From contig JAUXTT010000044.1 in assembly GCA_030684395.1 (NCBI GenBank), forward strand, positions 1-64,000: a stretch of DNA of 64,000 bases, in the 5' to 3' direction. Below, piece by piece: positions 14,282 to 26,028 of this stretch. The notes below the pieces were generated by a model. The model worked only from the letters and a program-made list of their open reading frames with translations, was not told the DNA's origin and made no database searches. Both the position numbers and the translations under genes were made by a program. The stretch comes from Bacteroidota bacterium (GTDB taxonomy: Bacteria > Bacteroidota > Bacteroidia > B-17B0 > Aurantibacillaceae). Numbering within the stretch: position 1 is the stretch's first letter; every line of letters starts with the position of its first letter.

Positions 14282-14305
14282 ATTGTGATTTGAGAATAAT
14301 GAAGG

Positions 14306-14507: not shown

Positions 14508-15728
14508 ATGATTGAGAATTTAAAAGTTGACGGTTTTAAATCATTGAGAAATTTTGAAATAAAATTTCAAAAAGGGATTAATGTTATTGTTGGACCTAAT
14601 GGAGTTGGTAAAACAAATATATGCCAAGCCCTCACGATATTATCTTCCTTAACGAATAATTCACTAAACGATGCTTTTACACAATTTGGTGGAGTTCGCT
14701 CGACTTTTAATTTGGTAGATTGCGAACAAGAAAACAAAAAAATAACTGTTGAAGCTAGTGGAAGAACCATTGGGACATTCAAAAATCAAGAGTATGATTT
14801 GGAATTTAAATACTCTATTGAGCTTGGACTATCAGAAGAATTATTAGTTAATTCTGAAGTTCTTGAGGTAAAGAGAAAATCTAAGCAAGGTACTTATAAA
14901 AAAGTACTCTCTATTAAACAAGATAAAAAAACACTAGTAGCTAAAATCCTGGACAATGAACTCATTGGAGATTTTAGCGTAATTAAAAAAGGGGAAAAAC
15001 AATTTAAATTAGAACTTAATGAATCTGAATATGAAAGCAAAAGCTTTCTCCCCCTTATATCAAGATTCATTTTTGTTTGCCATTTAGTTGCAAGAGAATT
15101 TTCTAAAATAAAATCTTTAAATATAGACCCTCACATCGCTAGACAAGCTTGTGACATAACTGAACCAAAAGAAATGCTAGGAAATGGAAAGTATTTAGCG
15201 AATACTCTTCATTTACTTTCTAAAAAACCTGATGACCTAATTGAAATTAACTCAATACTTGAGCAACTTTTGCCAAATTTTAAAGAGATAAAACCAGAAA
15301 TATCTGAAATTAGTTTAAAGAGATTTTTCTCTCTTATAGATAAAAGGAGGCACGGATTTTCATCAAATAGCCTTTCTGATGGCACGATAAAGCTGCTAGC
15401 TCTACTAGTTGGTATTGTTAGACAAAAAGAAAAAACAACAATAATAGAGGAACCCGAAAATTATCTACACCCATACGCAAATCGACTATTAATTAATTAT
15501 TTGCGAGATACATTTGACAATGGAGTTTGTATTCTGACGAGCCATTCGGAAACAATATTAAATTTAATCCAACCAGAAGAACTCATTATTTGTGAGTTAG
15601 ATGGAAGCTTTACAACTTGTAAAAGGCTTGACAACATTGAGAGTATAAAAAGAGTAATTGAATCTTCAGGATTTGGCTGTGGGTATCATTACATAGCCGG
15701 CAATCTTGGAGGTACGCCACAATTTTAA
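14508..15728 (+). CDS. AAA family ATPase (AAA_21/OLD-like), candidate defence gene
   Basis: 406-residue RecF/SMC-like ATPase. The N-terminus MIENLKVDGFKSLRNFEI is typical of the OLD/AAA_15/AAA_21 group. Walker A is GPNGVGKT (29-36); the ABC-type signature region is SLSDGTIKLLALL (about 290-302); Walker B is TIIEEPENYLHP (about 311-322); the switch histidine is in SHSETIL (about 344). The middle is a helical insertion. It ends without the C-terminal TOPRIM nuclease of full-length OLD proteins. The next gene starts 4 bases later and may supply a TOPRIM-like fold. Codons are strikingly A/T-rich beside pnp, suggesting acquisition. Substrate and trigger are unknown; anti-phage defence is inferred from architecture. 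Confidence 0.85.
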   Translation: MIENLKVDGFKSLRNFEIKFQKGINVIVGPNGVGKTNICQALTILSSLTNNSLNDAFTQFGGVRSTFNLVDCEQENKKITVEASGRTIGTFKNQEYDLEFKYSIELGLSEELLVNSEVLEVKRKSKQGTYKKVLSIKQDKKTLVAKILDNELIGDFSVIKKGEKQFKLELNESEYESKSFLPLISRFIFVCHLVAREFSKIKSLNIDPHIARQACDITEPKEMLGNGKYLANTLHLLSKKPDDLIEINSILEQLLPNFKEIKPEISEISLKRFFSLIDKRRHGFSSNSLSDGTIKLLALLVGIVRQKEKTTIIEEPENYLHPYANRLLINYLRDTFDNGVCILTSHSETILNLIQPEELIICELDGSFTTCKRLDNIESIKRVIESSGFGCGYHYIAGNLGGTPQF

Positions 15729-15732
15729 TTTT

Positions 15733-16347
15733 ATGAGTTTAAAAAACATTGCACTAATTGTTGACGGACCAACCGAGGAAGGTTCGTTGAGATTAAAATT
15801 TCAAATGAAATATTGTGATTGCCCAAATTTAAGAATTGGACCAGGAAACGGTATTACATACACAACTGAAGGTTATGCAAAAGGAGTACTACCTACCTTA
15901 ATATACTTATTAAATTCTTCTGTTCGAGCAATCATATTAATTCCTGACTTAGAAAAACGCAAAGTAACACCTGCAGACTTTGCAAATAATCTAAAAAAAA
16001 CAATTGTTGATTTTCTATTGGCTGAAACTTCATTTCTAAAGCCTCATTTAGAAGAAACAATACACATTTGTCCCCCAGACATAATGTTTGAGAATTGGAT
16101 AGTTTCGGACGTTGAAGGTATTAAAGATGGTAATAGTTTAATTCATGCTGGCGCAGTACAAAAAGATTTTGATGGAAAGAATGGGACTTCGGAGTTGCAA
16201 AAATTGATGACAACGAAATATAAAAAAACTGTACACGCCAAATTATTGTACAAAAAGACAGACGATGAAAGAAGTGCTAATAATTCAAGCAGTTTTAAAT
16301 CATTTATTGACAGCTTTCATCAATTGTATACTAAACATTGTCTTTAG
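15733..16347 (+). CDS. DUF4276-like (TOPRIM-fold) partner of the AAA ATPase
   Basis: 204 residues from the ATG at 15733; a TTG at 15706 in the same frame would overlap the ATPase and is less likely. The N-terminus NIALIVDGPTEEGSLRLKF matches the VEGxTEE signature of DUF4276/TOPRIM-like proteins. Acidic residues follow at IILIPDLEKRK (Asp72, Glu74), and PPDIMFENWIVSD (about 114-126) fits the FE-[ST/N]-W/L block of the family. In TOPRIM nucleases the first Glu and the DxD/E pair bind metal. Together with the upstream ATPase it forms a two-gene unit like PARIS (AAA_15 + DUF4435), but the family differs. Nuclease activity is not proven; the second acidic motif is D-x-E rather than D-x-D. Confidence 0.72.
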   Translation: MSLKNIALIVDGPTEEGSLRLKFQMKYCDCPNLRIGPGNGITYTTEGYAKGVLPTLIYLLNSSVRAIILIPDLEKRKVTPADFANNLKKTIVDFLLAETSFLKPHLEETIHICPPDIMFENWIVSDVEGIKDGNSLIHAGAVQKDFDGKNGTSELQKLMTTKYKKTVHAKLLYKKTDDERSANNSSSFKSFIDSFHQLYTKHCL

Positions 16348-16521: not shown

Positions 16522-17370
16522 TTAATCTTGAAATTCGATTTCCTTAACAACCTTATCCGTGTAGGTTTCAATTTGGCTTTCTTCAATCACAGCTGCATTT
16601 GCACCTGTCTTATCAAGAATTTGCTTAGCATAATTATAAGAATCAAGAAAGCTAGGAACCTGAGGTTTAATTAACAATAGGTCTATTCTGGAATTCTGCT
16701 TACTAATAATACCTGATAGGTGGTTTAATTGATTTTGAATAAGTAAAGCCTTGTTTACAATACCTTCCTCTTCACTCAAATCAAATGTAACTCCCTTGAT
16801 TAAATTACAAGTTCCATTCTGCCAGCTTAAGTCATATTTAAAAACAACTTTATCGCTTGCTAATGGTTGCTTAGCAACATGCAAGGCTTTTTCAATTTCT
16901 GGTCTTTTGCCAAGAATTATTTTCTTACACTCGTTAACTATTAACTTATCTGATTTATGTTTAACCTCGCTATGAGCTACTTCATAAGAGTCGAGATACA
17001 AATCAAAATACATCTTCTTTGTATACTCTATGCTATTTACCGACAAAGCATGGCTAAAATTTGTGAATTGAAGTGATGAGCCATCGGTTACAAGAAACTG
17101 CTCATTAATTAACTCATCATATCCAAAAACATAGTTCTTCAAACTACTAACCATTTTAGGAGCTTTAACTTTGAAGGAATGTAGATATGATTTAAGCAAC
17201 TCTATGGAAACATTTGGGTACGCTTTTTTTATCCTTTGAATCGAACTTGGATACACAAATTCCACATGACCATCTTCGGGGAATACAAATAAAATTCCCA
17301 CATTCAATTCCTCACCAATGAGTTTTGAATGGGTATATTTTAATATGCTATATGAAACGGTTCCGCTCAC
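16522..17370 (-). CDS. DUF3037 family protein, partner of HipA-like kinase
   Basis: 282 residues starting at GTG 17370, which overlaps the TGA of the upstream HipA-like gene (GTGA), so translation is probably coupled. The N-terminal half has the DUF3037 signature: VSYSILKYTHSKLIGEELNVGILFVFPEDG, seen here in short blocks, followed by FVYPSSIQRIKKAYPN. The C-terminal half is a separate alpha/beta region ending IETYTDKVVKEIEFQD. There is no membrane segment or known catalytic motif. DUF3037 genes are often found beside HipA-like kinases (family knowledge), but their joint function is not known to me. It could be the antitoxin, regulator or substrate of the kinase. Confidence 0.8.
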   Translation of the reverse strand: MSGTVSYSILKYTHSKLIGEELNVGILFVFPEDGHVEFVYPSSIQRIKKAYPNVSIELLKSYLHSFKVKAPKMVSSLKNYVFGYDELINEQFLVTDGSSLQFTNFSHALSVNSIEYTKKMYFDLYLDSYEVAHSEVKHKSDKLIVNECKKIILGKRPEIEKALHVAKQPLASDKVVFKYDLSWQNGTCNLIKGVTFDLSEEEGIVNKALLIQNQLNHLSGIISKQNSRIDLLLIKPQVPSFLDSYNYAKQILDKTGANAAVIEESQIETYTDKVVKEIEFQD

Positions 17371-18200
17371 AGTAATGATTCCTTTAAAATGGACACAAAG
17401 TTAGTACGATTTTGCTTAATATCATAAAGATAAGCTTTCCAAGCCTTACATTCACTAATATCATAGTCAAATTCAGTTAATTGGGCGTTAAGAATATCTA
17501 AATTTCCCAAGTTCAGTGAGTTAAAATATTCTCTGAACGTCTCAAATTTTTGGTCTATTCCACTTTTCTTGGCTCGCCTTTTTAACATTTCATAGAACAA
17601 ATGATACTTGTTATAAGGGCATAATCTATTGTTTGCAATCTCCCGTAAAGCATAATCCACACTACCAAAAGCCTTATCATGGTCAATTAGGCAATAACCA
17701 TCGGCTGTCTTAAGCATATTAGGTTTCACCCGCTTTCTGTCATCATTTAGAATTAAAGTATCGAAAGCATAAATCGTCTCAATATCGTGCGACTCAATAT
17801 ATTTTTTATGAAGCGCAGGAGAGAATATAGGCAGATCTCCGAGGTATACAGTGGCAAAACACGGTCTTGTATAATCTTTTTGCAGAAGCAGTTTATGTAA
17901 AGCTGGGTTAGTCTTTTTGTAAAGCTTAATTAATTCTTTAGGAATGCTAATAAAGGCGGCTTCAGGTGTATTTAATTCAAACTGCTTCGCTAAGTAGTGT
18001 GCATAAACCTCTGCACCTGTGTAACACCTTTGGTTTGCATGTTTCTTCCCAAACAGTTTTAATACATACGTCTTCTTATTTTCAGCAACGGAAAGCAACG
18101 GAAGTGTTGTACCTCCTTGTATAGGCTTCTCTCTAATTTCAATAGCTCTGTATAAAGGCAATTTGCTCACTTCTCTCAATCTGAATAGTACGGATAACAA
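17367..18200 (-). CDS. HipA-like kinase (HipA_2 type)
   Basis: Up to 277 residues, shorter than classical HipA (440). It lacks the HipA N-terminal subdomain and has no HipB-like partner. Kinase marks: TYVLKLFGKK with the candidate ATP lysine Lys48, Glu64 in TGAEVYAHYL, the catalytic loop LILNDDRKRVKPNML (Asp153/154, Asn161) and the metal-binding LIDHDKAFG (Asp173). So it is probably an active Ser/Thr kinase-fold enzyme. There is no ATG at the N-terminus. The first candidate, TTG at 18200, overlaps a -7 promoter box (18198-18205), so translation more likely starts at TTG 18179 or GTG 18170. It overlaps the DUF3037 gene by 4 bases. Classical HipA phosphorylates GltX; the target here is unknown. 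Confidence 0.82.
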   Translation of the reverse strand: MLSVLFRLREVSKLPLYRAIEIREKPIQGGTTLPLLSVAENKKTYVLKLFGKKHANQRCYTGAEVYAHYLAKQFELNTPEAAFISIPKELIKLYKKTNPALHKLLLQKDYTRPCFATVYLGDLPIFSPALHKKYIESHDIETIYAFDTLILNDDRKRVKPNMLKTADGYCLIDHDKAFGSVDYALREIANNRLCPYNKYHLFYEMLKRRAKKSGIDQKFETFREYFNSLNLGNLDILNAQLTEFDYDISECKAWKAYLYDIKQNRTNFVSILKESLL

Positions 18201-21930: not shown

Positions 21931-23823
21931 ATGCAAAAAACTTACAAATTTAAACTTTCGGTATTTTTAGGTATGCTTTGTCTCTTTCTTGGCACAAACA
22001 TTTCCGCACAATCTCTTATTTATGACAACGGTCCTTATTACAATGCAGTAGGCACGGGAGCCGGTGGGGCCAACGAAAGTGTGCTTTACACCACTACCTT
22101 TGGAATGGGAACCATAGGATTCGGACACCAGAGCAATACATTCAACCGTGTGGCCGATGATTTTACTATCACCGATTGTTACTGGCGAATTGACTCTATT
22201 GCTTTTTTCGGATACCAGACAGGCTCAACAACAACATCTACCTTTACCTCTTATAACTTCAGAATATGGGACAGTGTGCCCGACGCGCCGGGTTCAAATG
22301 TGGTATTTGGCGATACAACTACTAATCGTTTGATTAACACCGGGTGGAGTGGTGCTTACAGGGTTACGGAAACCACCATGGGTAATTCAACAAGGCCGAT
22401 CATGCGCAATGTATGTACAGCAGAAGGAAAACTCTTGCCGGCAGCAACTTATTGGATCGATTGGTCAACAACAGGAAGTCTTGCTTCGGGTCCTTGGGCT
22501 TGTCCATTAACACCTCCGGGTGTTGCAATAACAGGAAATGCAAAACAACGAACAAGTGGAACCTGGAATAATATGTTAGATGGAGGCACTGGTACTCCCG
22601 CTCAGGGACTTCCTTTTATCATTTATGGAACAATAATAAACCTCGCAGCTGATGCAGGTCTTAACACACTTACATGTGTTGGAGCAAATGTTATGCTTGG
22701 TGGAACACCTGCGGCTACGGGCGGGCAAGGGACAATAAGCTATGCCTGGTCTCCTTCCGGAGTTATTGTAGATACTACTGTTGCCAACCCAACTTTCACT
22801 GTGACTGATTCGATGACATTCTTTCTTACTGTTACCGACACATTAGGTTGTGTAGGTATGGATACTGTTGTAGTAGATACAATGTCCATACAGGTATCGA
22901 TCAGCGTAAACGGAGATACTGTTTTCTGTGCAGGAGACAGTGCTCAACTTATTGCAAGCAATAGCTTAGGATATACTTACTTATGGAACACTACTTCTAC
23001 CGATTCAGCGATCACCGTTTATAACGGAGGATTATATGATGTAAGCGTTTCAAATGGTTTGGGTTGTCAGAGCGCCGCTTCTGTAAACATCACCGTAAAT
23101 GCGGTTCCAATCGTTACTATCAGTTCATTGGGCTTAACCGCCGTTGAATGTGAAGGATCGTTGGATACATTAGTTGCCACTGGAGCTGATACTTATACAT
23201 GGAATACATTTGAAACCAATGACACGCTTGCAGTAGTTCAAACATCAGGAGTGACATCGTGGACAGTGATTGGTACAGATGTGAACGGATGTTCAGACAC
23301 AACTGAAACAACTATTACCAATGTGAGTACACCATTTACTGTTAGTCTTGATTTAACAGCAATTGATACTAACTGCGTAAACGCAAGCGCATTTCCTTTA
23401 GCAACAGCAACTCCTTCCGGAGGTACCTGGAGTGGAACAGGTGTTAGCGGTTCTGATTTTGACCCGGCAACAGCTGGTGTAGGAACTCATTTCCTAACCT
23501 ATACTGTACTGAATAGCGACAATTGTGTGAGTTCCGCAACCGACAGTATTTTTGTTTCAGGATGTGTTGGTTTAGAAAATTACTCAGCACAAGCAAACTT
23601 ACTTGCATTTCCAAATCCATCAACCGGAAACTTTACTCTCCAATATAATCATGATGCTTCATTTGTGCTGGTAAACGAACTGGGACAAACTATTAGCAAT
23701 ATTATTTTAAACAGTAACAATAATTACTCCCACACATTCACCAATCTTGATAATGGAATTTATTTTATTAAAGGAATGATGAACGGTCAGTTAATGACTA
23801 AAAAGATAGTCGTTACTAAATAA
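21931..23823 (+). CDS. Secreted protein with T9SS type A sorting domain
   Basis: 630 residues from the ATG at 21931. Signal peptide (about 1-28, ending NISAQ), an N-terminal beta-sandwich-like domain rich in G/T/S (about 30-225), immunoglobulin/PKD-like repeats with paired cysteines (about 230-540), and a C-terminal type A sorting domain from about 560: LLAFPNPSTGNFTLQY, FVLVNELGQ, LDNGIYFIKGMMNGQ and the final KKIVVTK. T9SS carries such proteins across the outer membrane and removes the C-terminal domain. The catalytic or binding role of the N-terminal domain is unknown. The last 250 residues are closely similar to the downstream gene at 24139, as are the two terminators. Confidence 0.88.
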   Translation: MQKTYKFKLSVFLGMLCLFLGTNISAQSLIYDNGPYYNAVGTGAGGANESVLYTTTFGMGTIGFGHQSNTFNRVADDFTITDCYWRIDSIAFFGYQTGSTTTSTFTSYNFRIWDSVPDAPGSNVVFGDTTTNRLINTGWSGAYRVTETTMGNSTRPIMRNVCTAEGKLLPAATYWIDWSTTGSLASGPWACPLTPPGVAITGNAKQRTSGTWNNMLDGGTGTPAQGLPFIIYGTIINLAADAGLNTLTCVGANVMLGGTPAATGGQGTISYAWSPSGVIVDTTVANPTFTVTDSMTFFLTVTDTLGCVGMDTVVVDTMSIQVSISVNGDTVFCAGDSAQLIASNSLGYTYLWNTTSTDSAITVYNGGLYDVSVSNGLGCQSAASVNITVNAVPIVTISSLGLTAVECEGSLDTLVATGADTYTWNTFETNDTLAVVQTSGVTSWTVIGTDVNGCSDTTETTITNVSTPFTVSLDLTAIDTNCVNASAFPLATATPSGGTWSGTGVSGSDFDPATAGVGTHFLTYTVLNSDNCVSSATDSIFVSGCVGLENYSAQANLLAFPNPSTGNFTLQYNHDASFVLVNELGQTISNIILNSNNNYSHTFTNLDNGIYFIKGMMNGQLMTKKIVVTK

Positions 23824-23843
23824 AGGAACACTCAAAACGATTA

Positions 23844-23877
23844 AACGGCTGCAATATATTTGCGGCCGTTTTTTTAT
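23844..23877 (+). terminator. Terminator of first T9SS cargo gene
   Basis: AACGGCTGCAA (23844-23854) pairs with TTGCGGCCGTT (23860-23870) with one mismatch, followed by seven T. Nearly the same hairpin follows the paralogue at 26051. Confidence 0.9.
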
Positions 23878-24103
23878 CCTGCTAAGCGATATGTTCTTTA
23901 CCGGTTTTTTTCATGTGTTCATTTTATTTAGCCACCAATTTATAGAATCAGAAATGATTTTCTTCATAAAGGATGCATTCAATCATGAAAAAGGAATCTT
24001 TAAAAAATAACCGTTTCCTCATTCTCTGTCATCAATACACTCATTTGTTCTTAACTCCCCATTTTCTTAACAAAAAACAAAGATTTCTTCCCCAATGATT
24101 TAG
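23878..24103. other. Gene-free stretch between the two T9SS genes
   Basis: The 315 bases between 23823 and 24139 hold the terminator above, the promoter box below and A/T-rich sequence between them. A 37-codon frame at 23985-24098 has no supporting signal. I see nothing else. Confidence 0.5.
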
Positions 24104-24111
24104 TATCTTTG
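24104..24111 (+). promoter_or_regulatory. -7 box of second T9SS cargo gene
   Basis: TATCTTTG followed by CAGCCG, 27 bases before the ATG at 24139. It overlaps the TTG at 24109 that opens the frame, arguing for the ATG start. Confidence 0.55.
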
Positions 24112-24138
24112 CAGCCGTTAAAACAAAAAAATAAATCC

Positions 24139-26028
24139 ATGAAAAAACACATTACTTTTTACTTATTGATGCTAATTGCTCCTTTAGCGGGGTTTTCTCA
24201 AGCCTGTGACCTTTTCTTTTCCGAATACCTGGAAGGGGCATCAAACAACAAAGCGATAGAGATATACAACCCTACTTCTTCAACCATTAACCTAACAGAT
24301 TATATAATGTTCAGGTATAACAATGGCTCACCGATTCCAACCGACTCATTATACATGCAGGGCACACTGGCTCCCGGAGCTGTTTATGTGGCAGGTAATC
24401 CTTCTGCCGTAGCCGGTATATTGGCAGTGTCAGATACCTTACATACCATTACCTTTTTCAACGGAGATGATGCCATGGCATTGTGTTACAAACCTACCCG
24501 CACCATGATCGATGTTGTTGGTCTTATTGGTAACGATCCGGGAACAAACTGGCCGGTAGGAACTGGCGCTACAAGCGAATTTACTCTTGTAAGAATGGCA
24601 GGTGTGACCTACGGTAATACCAATTGGGCGACTGGTGCTACCGAATGGGACGTTTATCCTCAGAATACCACTACATTTCTTGGTAACCATACAAGCTTGG
24701 GTTGTTGCCCTGCCACTACTGCTACAATAAGTCCGATAGCTTGCGGAACTTACACTTCACCATCAGGAAATGTATGGACAGTATCAAACACGTATAACGA
24801 TACAATTCCAAACGTTGCAGGTTGTGATTCTATCATCACCATCAATCTTACTGTTCTTGCCGCTACAGCAAATTCTTTTTCAGTAACTGCTTGCGGAATG
24901 TACACTTCTCCTTCAGGAAATGTATGGACAGTATCAAACACGTATAACGATACAATTCCAAACGTTGCAGGTTGCGATTCTGTTATCACGATTGATCTTA
25001 CCATCAATGCTCCAACGGCAAATTCTTTTTCAGCAACTGCTTGCGGTTCTTATACTTCTCCATCCGGAAATGTATGGACAGTATCAAACACTTATAACGA
25101 TACTATTCCAAACGCTGTCGGTTGTGATTCTATTATTACTATTAATCTTACTATCAACGATCCTACTGCCAATTCTTTTTCAGTAACTGCTTGTGGAAGC
25201 TATACTTCACCTTCAGGGAATGTATGGACAGTATCAAACACTTATAACGATACTATTCCAAATGCTGCAGGTTGTGATTCTGTTATCACCATCAATCTAA
25301 CGATTAACACATTACCATCAGTAACAGTAAGTGGTTCTCTTGCTTCTAATGAGTGTGAAGGCTCAATAGATACATTAATTGCCAACGGTGCATTAACTTA
25401 CCTATGGAATACCACAGAAACAAACGACACACTGATTATTACACATGCACCGGGAGTTTTATCATGGGAAGTTGTTGGGACAGATGTAAACGGTTGTACT
25501 GACACCATAATGGCTACTGTAGTAAATGTGTATCCTCTTGATCCGGTTAGTATTGACCTGGGAGTTATAGATAGTCTTTGTGTAAACAATTCACTTGTTG
25601 CATTGGCAACTTCTTCTCCGGCAGGAGGAACATGGAGCGGAACAGGTGTAACTGGTTCTGATTTTGACCCGGCAATTGCAGGTATTGGAGTTCATACTAT
25701 TGTTTACACCATCATAGGAACCGGAAACTGTACAAATACAGCAACCGACAGTATCTTTGTTTCAGGATGTATTGGATTGGAAGATTATAAAGCGAATGCA
25801 AACCTGGTTGTTTTTCCAAATCCTTCAACCGGAAACTTTACTCTCCACTATAACAATGATGCTTCATTTGTATTGATCAATGAATTTGGACAATCAATTC
25901 AACATATACTTTTAAACGCCGCTAACAATTACTCCTATACATTCTCAAACCTTGATAACGGTATCTATTTTATCACCGGAATGATGAACGGACATTTTGT
26001 AACTCAGAAAATTGTTATTACAAAATAA
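24139..26028 (+). CDS. Secreted protein: lamin-tail domain, 4 repeats, T9SS sorting domain
   Basis: 629 residues from the ATG at 24139. Signal peptide (about 1-21, ending GFSQ). A lamin-tail-like domain (about 23-190) follows: CDLFFSEYLEGASNNKAIEIYNP, GAVYVAGNPSA and FNGDDAMALCYKP in blocks. Then come four 50-residue repeats (about 200-395), each CGxYTSPSGNVWTVSNTYND then TIPN..GCDS.ITI.LT with two cysteines. A PKD-like segment and a type A sorting domain follow (LVVFPNPSTGNFTLHY, QKIVITK). It is exported by T9SS and probably displayed on the cell surface. The C-terminal half is homologous to the upstream gene. The repeats suggest a stalk or adhesin; no ligand can be named. Confidence 0.9.
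   Translation: MKKHITFYLLMLIAPLAGFSQACDLFFSEYLEGASNNKAIEIYNPTSSTINLTDYIMFRYNNGSPIPTDSLYMQGTLAPGAVYVAGNPSAVAGILAVSDTLHTITFFNGDDAMALCYKPTRTMIDVVGLIGNDPGTNWPVGTGATSEFTLVRMAGVTYGNTNWATGATEWDVYPQNTTTFLGNHTSLGCCPATTATISPIACGTYTSPSGNVWTVSNTYNDTIPNVAGCDSIITINLTVLAATANSFSVTACGMYTSPSGNVWTVSNTYNDTIPNVAGCDSVITIDLTINAPTANSFSATACGSYTSPSGNVWTVSNTYNDTIPNAVGCDSIITINLTINDPTANSFSVTACGSYTSPSGNVWTVSNTYNDTIPNAAGCDSVITINLTINTLPSVTVSGSLASNECEGSIDTLIANGALTYLWNTTETNDTLIITHAPGVLSWEVVGTDVNGCTDTIMATVVNVYPLDPVSIDLGVIDSLCVNNSLVALATSSPAGGTWSGTGVTGSDFDPAIAGIGVHTIVYTIIGTGNCTNTATDSIFVSGCIGLEDYKANANLVVFPNPSTGNFTLHYNNDASFVLINEFGQSIQHILLNAANNYSYTFSNLDNGIYFITGMMNGHFVTQKIVITK
24741..25313 (+). repeat. Four 150-bp in-frame tandem repeats
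   Basis: Units begin at about 24741, 24891, 25041 and 25191, an exact 150-base period. GGAAATGTATGGACAGTATC and ACTATTCCAAACG-type words are conserved. The last unit is slightly truncated. The repeats encode the 50-residue stalk units of the T9SS protein. Confidence 0.92.

Follow-up and report, generated by a model that had tools for sequence, protein, structure and literature searches.

Gene pair and its surroundings

In the window, by which we mean the entire 64,000-nucleotide stretch of Bacteroidota DNA analyzed here, we observe a gene for an OLD-type ABC ATPase that is directly followed by a small gene for a DUF4276-like protein, a candidate Toprim-like nuclease (Table 1). The two open reading frames (ORFs) are separated by exactly 4 bases, the TAA stop codon of the first being followed by TTTT and then by the ATG of the second. 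Pfam families AAA_21 (E = 3e-24) and AAA_15 (E = 1e-21) match the ATPase along nearly its entire length, and the Pfam search finds no Toprim domain of its own in this protein. Aligned with 26 other partner ATPases, it displays a Walker A motif (GPNGVGKT), a signature motif (LSDGT), a Walker B motif (IIEEPENYLHP), and an H-loop (TSHS). A C-terminal tail is common to the partner ATPases, reading YSLGELWxKNxxGGxP in most of them and GFGCGYHYIAGNLGGTPQF in the window ATPase, and may plausibly serve as a contact site for the DUF4276-like partner. In the partner itself, VDGPTEE occupies residues 10 to 16, and the sequence PDLEK holds D72-x-E74. A preliminary description had reported the two-gene arrangement with its 4-base gap, the ATPase lacking a Toprim domain, and both partner motifs, all of which our analysis reproduces.

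The same description placed the pair in A/T-rich DNA next to a second candidate pair, and this too is what we find. The GC content of the pair is 31.7% versus 36.1% for the window, which falls within the bottom 0.6% of stretches of this size. Upstream lies pnp, and on the other side a HipA_2 kinase-like gene and a DUF3037 gene, convergent with the ATPase/partner pair, correspond to PADLOC candidate PDC-M66 and form a candidate second defense pair adjoining the first. No restriction genes are found beside the window pair. In the closest genome compared, which is of the same genus, pnp (93% identical) is followed by a priA-like gene (read by eye from the sequence). Only short DNA matches to this genome are seen between window positions 14282 and about 26160, and longer matches resume beyond ~26160, in other contig regions. 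This pattern is consistent with an accessory insertion or with a rearrangement downstream of pnp; a clean empty site for the pair was not found in the same-genus genome. Positions 21931 to 26028 of the window encode two secreted proteins whose C-terminal ends resemble each other and are probably type IX secretion signals; several near-identical internal repeats are present in the second protein. Contig 20 of the window's genome carries AbiL (RloA and RloB; L138:7578-9442), a second split ATPase/Toprim-like system.

Table 1. Coordinates of the ATPase/partner pair, its putative motifs, the adjoining pair, and a prophage-borne relative (window positions unless a locus is named)
Feature	Position	Strand	Basis or remark
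OLD-type ABC ATPase, 406 aa, HEC-01A-like	14508..15728	+	ORF from ATG; AAA_21/AAA_15; PADLOC HEC-01A, E = 4.9e-45 over 2-376
Conserved ATPase C-terminal tail, SGFGCGYHYIAGNLGGTPQF	15666..15725	+	Resembles the tail of other DUF4276-paired ATPases
DUF4276-like, Toprim-like nuclease candidate, 204 aa, HEC-01B-like	15733..16347	+	ORF from ATG; weak DUF4276/HEC-01B matches, hhalign
Putative Toprim motif 1, D11-G-P-T-E15	15763..15777	+	Alignments; aligned with E400/E404 of Bp OLD (PMC6755086)
Putative Toprim motif 2, D72-L-E74	15946..15954	+	Aligned with DxD motif; invariant in 4/4 clade members
Motif 3, F119-E120-N-W	16087..16098	+	Aligned with HEFEALLF of canonical DUF4276 and E508 of Bp OLD
Motif 4, Y163-K-K165	16219..16227	+	Aligned with Y-x-K of DUF4276; compare K562 of Bp OLD
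HipA_2 kinase-like gene, then DUF3037 gene	16522-18200	-	PADLOC candidate PDC-M66A/B; convergent with the ATPase/partner pair
Canonical HEC-01 pair, Mu-like prophage	L072:4683-7194		Between CI-like repressor and endolysin/Rz lysis genes

Family of the partner protein

The partner was previously assigned to DUF4276 from its motifs. Pfam DUF4276 (PF14103) matches it with an E value of 2.9e-4 and 21.6 bits, which is under the gathering score of 30.2, and no other Pfam family matches at E ≤ 10. Profile-to-profile comparison is where the assignment holds: the window clade aligns with the canonical DUF4276 profile at 96.4% probability over 188 columns (hhalign), with reversed profiles near zero, which confirms at the level of sequence a common descent along the full domain, shared motifs included. 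The PADLOC HEC-01B model matches the partner with an E value of 4.8e-6 over about half of the profile. We place the window partner on a divergent HEC-01B branch, because it reaches 25 bits against this model while two canonical relatives reach 254 and 275 bits; by the same profile evidence, the window pair is a divergent branch of the DUF4276/HEC-01 group. DUF4276 proteins are common, with one present in 55 of 296 sampled Bacteroidota genomes. We found no paper naming them in the literature searched and, by sequence search, no solved structure.

Coupling of the ATPase and partner genes

The window pair recurs in Flectobacillus (ATPase 76% and partner 62% identical) and in Pontibacter (64% and 53%), in both cases with the two genes 2 bases apart and with all motif residues of the partner kept. 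A further copy of the window clade was found in a Desulfobacteraceae metagenome-assembled genome, where an IS21-type element truncates it at the 5' end. Since the hosts of these members belong to two phyla, the distribution points to horizontal transfer of the clade. We looked for further members by single sequence and by profile in 395 genomes sampled from the phylum, in 60 relatives, and in 395 genomes of the class (the last with a profile), and found none; the clade is rare and very patchy in its distribution.

Across the broader family, an ATPase gene lies directly upstream of the DUF4276/HEC-01B gene in 39 of 41 distinct loci; the two remaining loci are cut, one by the IS21-type element and one by a contig edge. 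The two genes overlap slightly or sit at most 4 bases apart in the 30 loci with placeable starts. Their products diverge together, with a Mantel r of 0.948 over 27 non-redundant pairs (p ≤ 5e-4; 2000 permutations, none above 0.335). We thus observe a strong genetic coupling of the OLD-type ATPase to its Toprim-like partner, and homologues of the two do co-occur. In viral contigs, no close relatives of the partner were found, and broader DUF4276 patterns recovered a single complete pair, located in a Mu-like prophage, together with a fragment; complete pairs are very rare among the contigs searched. The window partner alone gave no match to phage and plasmid records.

Putative active site of the partner

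The active site of Bp OLD comprises E400, E404, D455, D457, T506, E508, and K562 (PMC6755086). In our alignment, all of its metal ligands except T506, as well as the lysine, have counterparts in the window partner, with K165 as the candidate catalytic lysine. D72, E74, E120, and K165 are kept in four of four clade members; the positions of D11 and E15 are covered by three members, and all three keep both residues. The clade deviates in two respects, having an aspartate (D11) where the Toprim glutamate is invariant and D-x-E where canonical DUF4276 proteins have D-x-Y and Toprim domains D-x-D. Glu15, the residue that the preliminary description had singled out for mutation, needs to be reassigned: the invariant glutamate aligns with D11, and E15 corresponds to the second metal-site residue (E404 of Bp OLD).

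DUF4276 matches the OLD Toprim profile (hhalign 74.5%, E = 2.7e-5; reversed control, 0.2%), and for one DUF4276 protein (L067) there is also a match to GajA, at the start of its Toprim region (E = 4.9e-4). The window clade alone gave no match to OLD Toprim profiles (hhalign 2.7%). AlphaFold2 models of the partner, built from alignments of 3 and 4 sequences from which misaligned distant rows had been left out, are of low confidence (pLDDT, 56.7 and 60.8), and only a generic alpha/beta sandwich is visible in them. Searches of PDB and viral folds with these low-confidence models returned no significant match; the longest structural alignments covered 157 residues (6njv, Z = 5.6) and 162 residues (6nk8, Z = 5.0) of OLD C-terminal regions, with scores tied with those of unrelated chains. 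The absent fold match is no evidence against a Toprim domain in the partner. From the motifs and the match between the DUF4276 and OLD profiles, we consider the DUF4276-like partner likely to be a Toprim protein, as had been proposed before, with a fold that structure prediction leaves unconfirmed.

Genomic settings of related pairs

Several relatives sit among restriction genes. In a Bacteroidota genome (L148), a related pair lies between type III Mod (methylase) and Res genes, and upstream of it are a helicase fragment and a further candidate; at L139, a pair has a type II methylase and a GmrSD/NsnA gene as neighbors; and on Aeromonas and Ideonella plasmids, pairs are found within methylase/helicase operons. 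Because some relatives are embedded in restriction operons, we propose a backup role, this siting suggesting that the pair acts in a PARIS-like manner when restriction is inhibited. The role is directly testable with anti-restriction proteins. Other plasmid-borne copies come from Acinetobacter, Nostoc, and Piscirickettsia. On the 11-kb mobilizable Acinetobacter plasmid pTR11_2 (L152), a HEC-01 pair is accompanied by vapBC and by tet(39), a tetracycline efflux gene. The pair in the Mu-like prophage is flanked by the CI-like repressor and by endolysin/Rz genes, at a position where lysogen-expressed cargo is common.

The neighbors of related pairs are mixed. Restriction, plasmid, and prophage settings agree with an expectation of defense-related neighbors, whereas about half of the wider Bacteroidota neighborhoods (n = 11) contain housekeeping genes only, different ones each time. 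Such differing housekeeping neighbors are as expected for a mobile stand-alone module. At one locus (L143:3839-7837), a split transketolase has a HEC-01-like pair and a Uma2 gene inserted between the genes for its two subunits.

Proposed mechanism and alternatives

We propose that the pair is probably an anti-phage module of the split-OLD type, a divergent HEC-01 in which an ATPase sensor activates a two-metal Toprim-like nuclease and growth stops before phage release. This defense reading is favored because relatives occur in restriction operons, on plasmids, and in a prophage, and because the PDC-M66 candidate pair adjoins the window pair. The ATPase would dimerize on ATP and act as the infection sensor, holding or positioning the small DUF4276 protein in an inactive state. 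A phage trigger would cause it to release or activate this partner, which as a two-metal Toprim-like nuclease would cut nucleic acid, either host tRNA or DNA, and the cleavage would lead to growth arrest before phage release, i.e., abortive infection. We infer the Toprim fold and catalysis, the role of the ATPase as sensor or regulator, and the abortive outcome. A scheme of sensor ATPase and activated nuclease is likely by analogy with two precedents: in PARIS, the partner of the OLD-type ATPase is a Toprim tRNase, AriB, which becomes active upon infection (PMC9122126, PMC12409363), and AAA proteins neutralize TOPRIM_OLD toxins in toxicity assays (PMC10440598). A further-reaching idea, speculative and unlikely, is that the Toprim active site of the window clade is re-arranged (D11, D-x-E), has its own substrate or trigger, and would constitute a separate class of split-OLD immunity, with the conserved GG-x-P tail of the ATPase gating the nuclease.

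The second of these precedents would also suit a reading of the window pair as a toxin-antitoxin module kept by addiction without a part in phage defense, in which the ATPase would do no more than neutralize a constitutively toxic Toprim-like partner. Genes that overlap or nearly touch and the plasmid carriage of relatives would suit this reading as well. We consider it unlikely, as loss of either gene is non-toxic in the analogous PARIS (PMC9122126) and as siting between restriction genes or by a prophage repressor suits defense better.

Alternatively, the DUF4276 partner may be a Toprim-related or Rossmann-like binding subunit rather than a nuclease, with the effect coming from the ATPase or from another activity. 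The aspartate in place of the invariant Toprim glutamate, the D-x-Y of canonical DUF4276 proteins, and the generic alpha/beta sandwich of the models are all compatible with this, but the window clade keeps six acidic or lysine positions corresponding to the OLD active site, and we regard a non-nuclease partner as unlikely. OLD-family ATPases can also be non-defensive: the archaeal member Cran1 has been shown to work in cell-cycle or DNA maintenance functions (PMC12796447). A cellular role of this kind could draw on the housekeeping neighbors at several loci, but is highly improbable given the very patchy spread (searches of the relatives and a profile search of the 395 class genomes found no other match), the plasmid and prophage copies, and neighbors that differ at each locus. 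The split-OLD defense module that we favor lends itself to active-site and phage-protection tests.

Comparison with known systems

Several known systems resemble the window pair without accounting for it. Like PARIS (AriA and AriB/DUF4435), it joins an OLD-type ATPase of the AAA_15/AAA_21 kind to a separate small Toprim-like partner. This partner is DUF4276-like rather than DUF4435, and with no match to PF14491 and an hhalign value of 0.3% to DUF4435, we rejected an assignment to PARIS under its published criteria (PMC9122126). PARIS is further characterized by triggering through anti-restriction proteins and by tRNA cleavage. The preliminary description had called the architecture the same as that of PARIS, which stands only as an analogy, since the pair lacks DUF4435, the defining partner in PARIS. 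AbiL/RloAB (AbiLi ATPase with AbiLii/RloB) likewise combines an ATPase with a Toprim-like partner, and RloB shares an EG-TE-like start and D-x-D and FE.W motifs. Its profile is weakly related to that of DUF4276 (20%), with no relation detected for the window clade, and this candidate was rejected as well (no PF13707 match; hhalign to RloB, 0.1%).

OLD class 1/2 and the Gabija protein GajA unite an ABC ATPase and a Toprim domain with an EGxxE...DxD...E...K active site, but do so in one chain, whereas two ORFs are present here, which led us to reject both. Septu was rejected since its PtuB is an HNH nuclease and the window partner has no HNH family match, and MADS Mad3 since the NCBIfam MADS3 model gives the window ATPase 98 bits (6e-28) against a cut-off of 420, with no other MADS gene among the scanned neighbors.

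The architecture of an ATPase with a DUF4276 protein is already known as the PADLOC candidate HEC-01, HEC standing for "Hma-embedded candidate" (PMC10855318; PMC12988326), and the window pair is thus not a new kind of system. HEC-01 is listed as a predicted system in Desulfovibrio (PMC12724379), and no experimental test of it was found in the literature searched. The window pair shares with it the same two adjacent genes with the ATPase first, the C-terminal ATPase tail, and a DUF4276-type partner. It differs in the low HEC-01B score of that partner (25 bits versus about 250-275 in canonical members), in its D11 and D-x-E variants, and in lying outside Hma or restriction genes, among which relatives L148, H2, H11, and H12 are found; embedding among helicase and methylase genes was the criterion by which HEC candidates were discovered and is not needed at every locus. 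If DUF4276 is the nuclease half of a split OLD, this would provide a mechanism for the whole catalogued candidate HEC-01.
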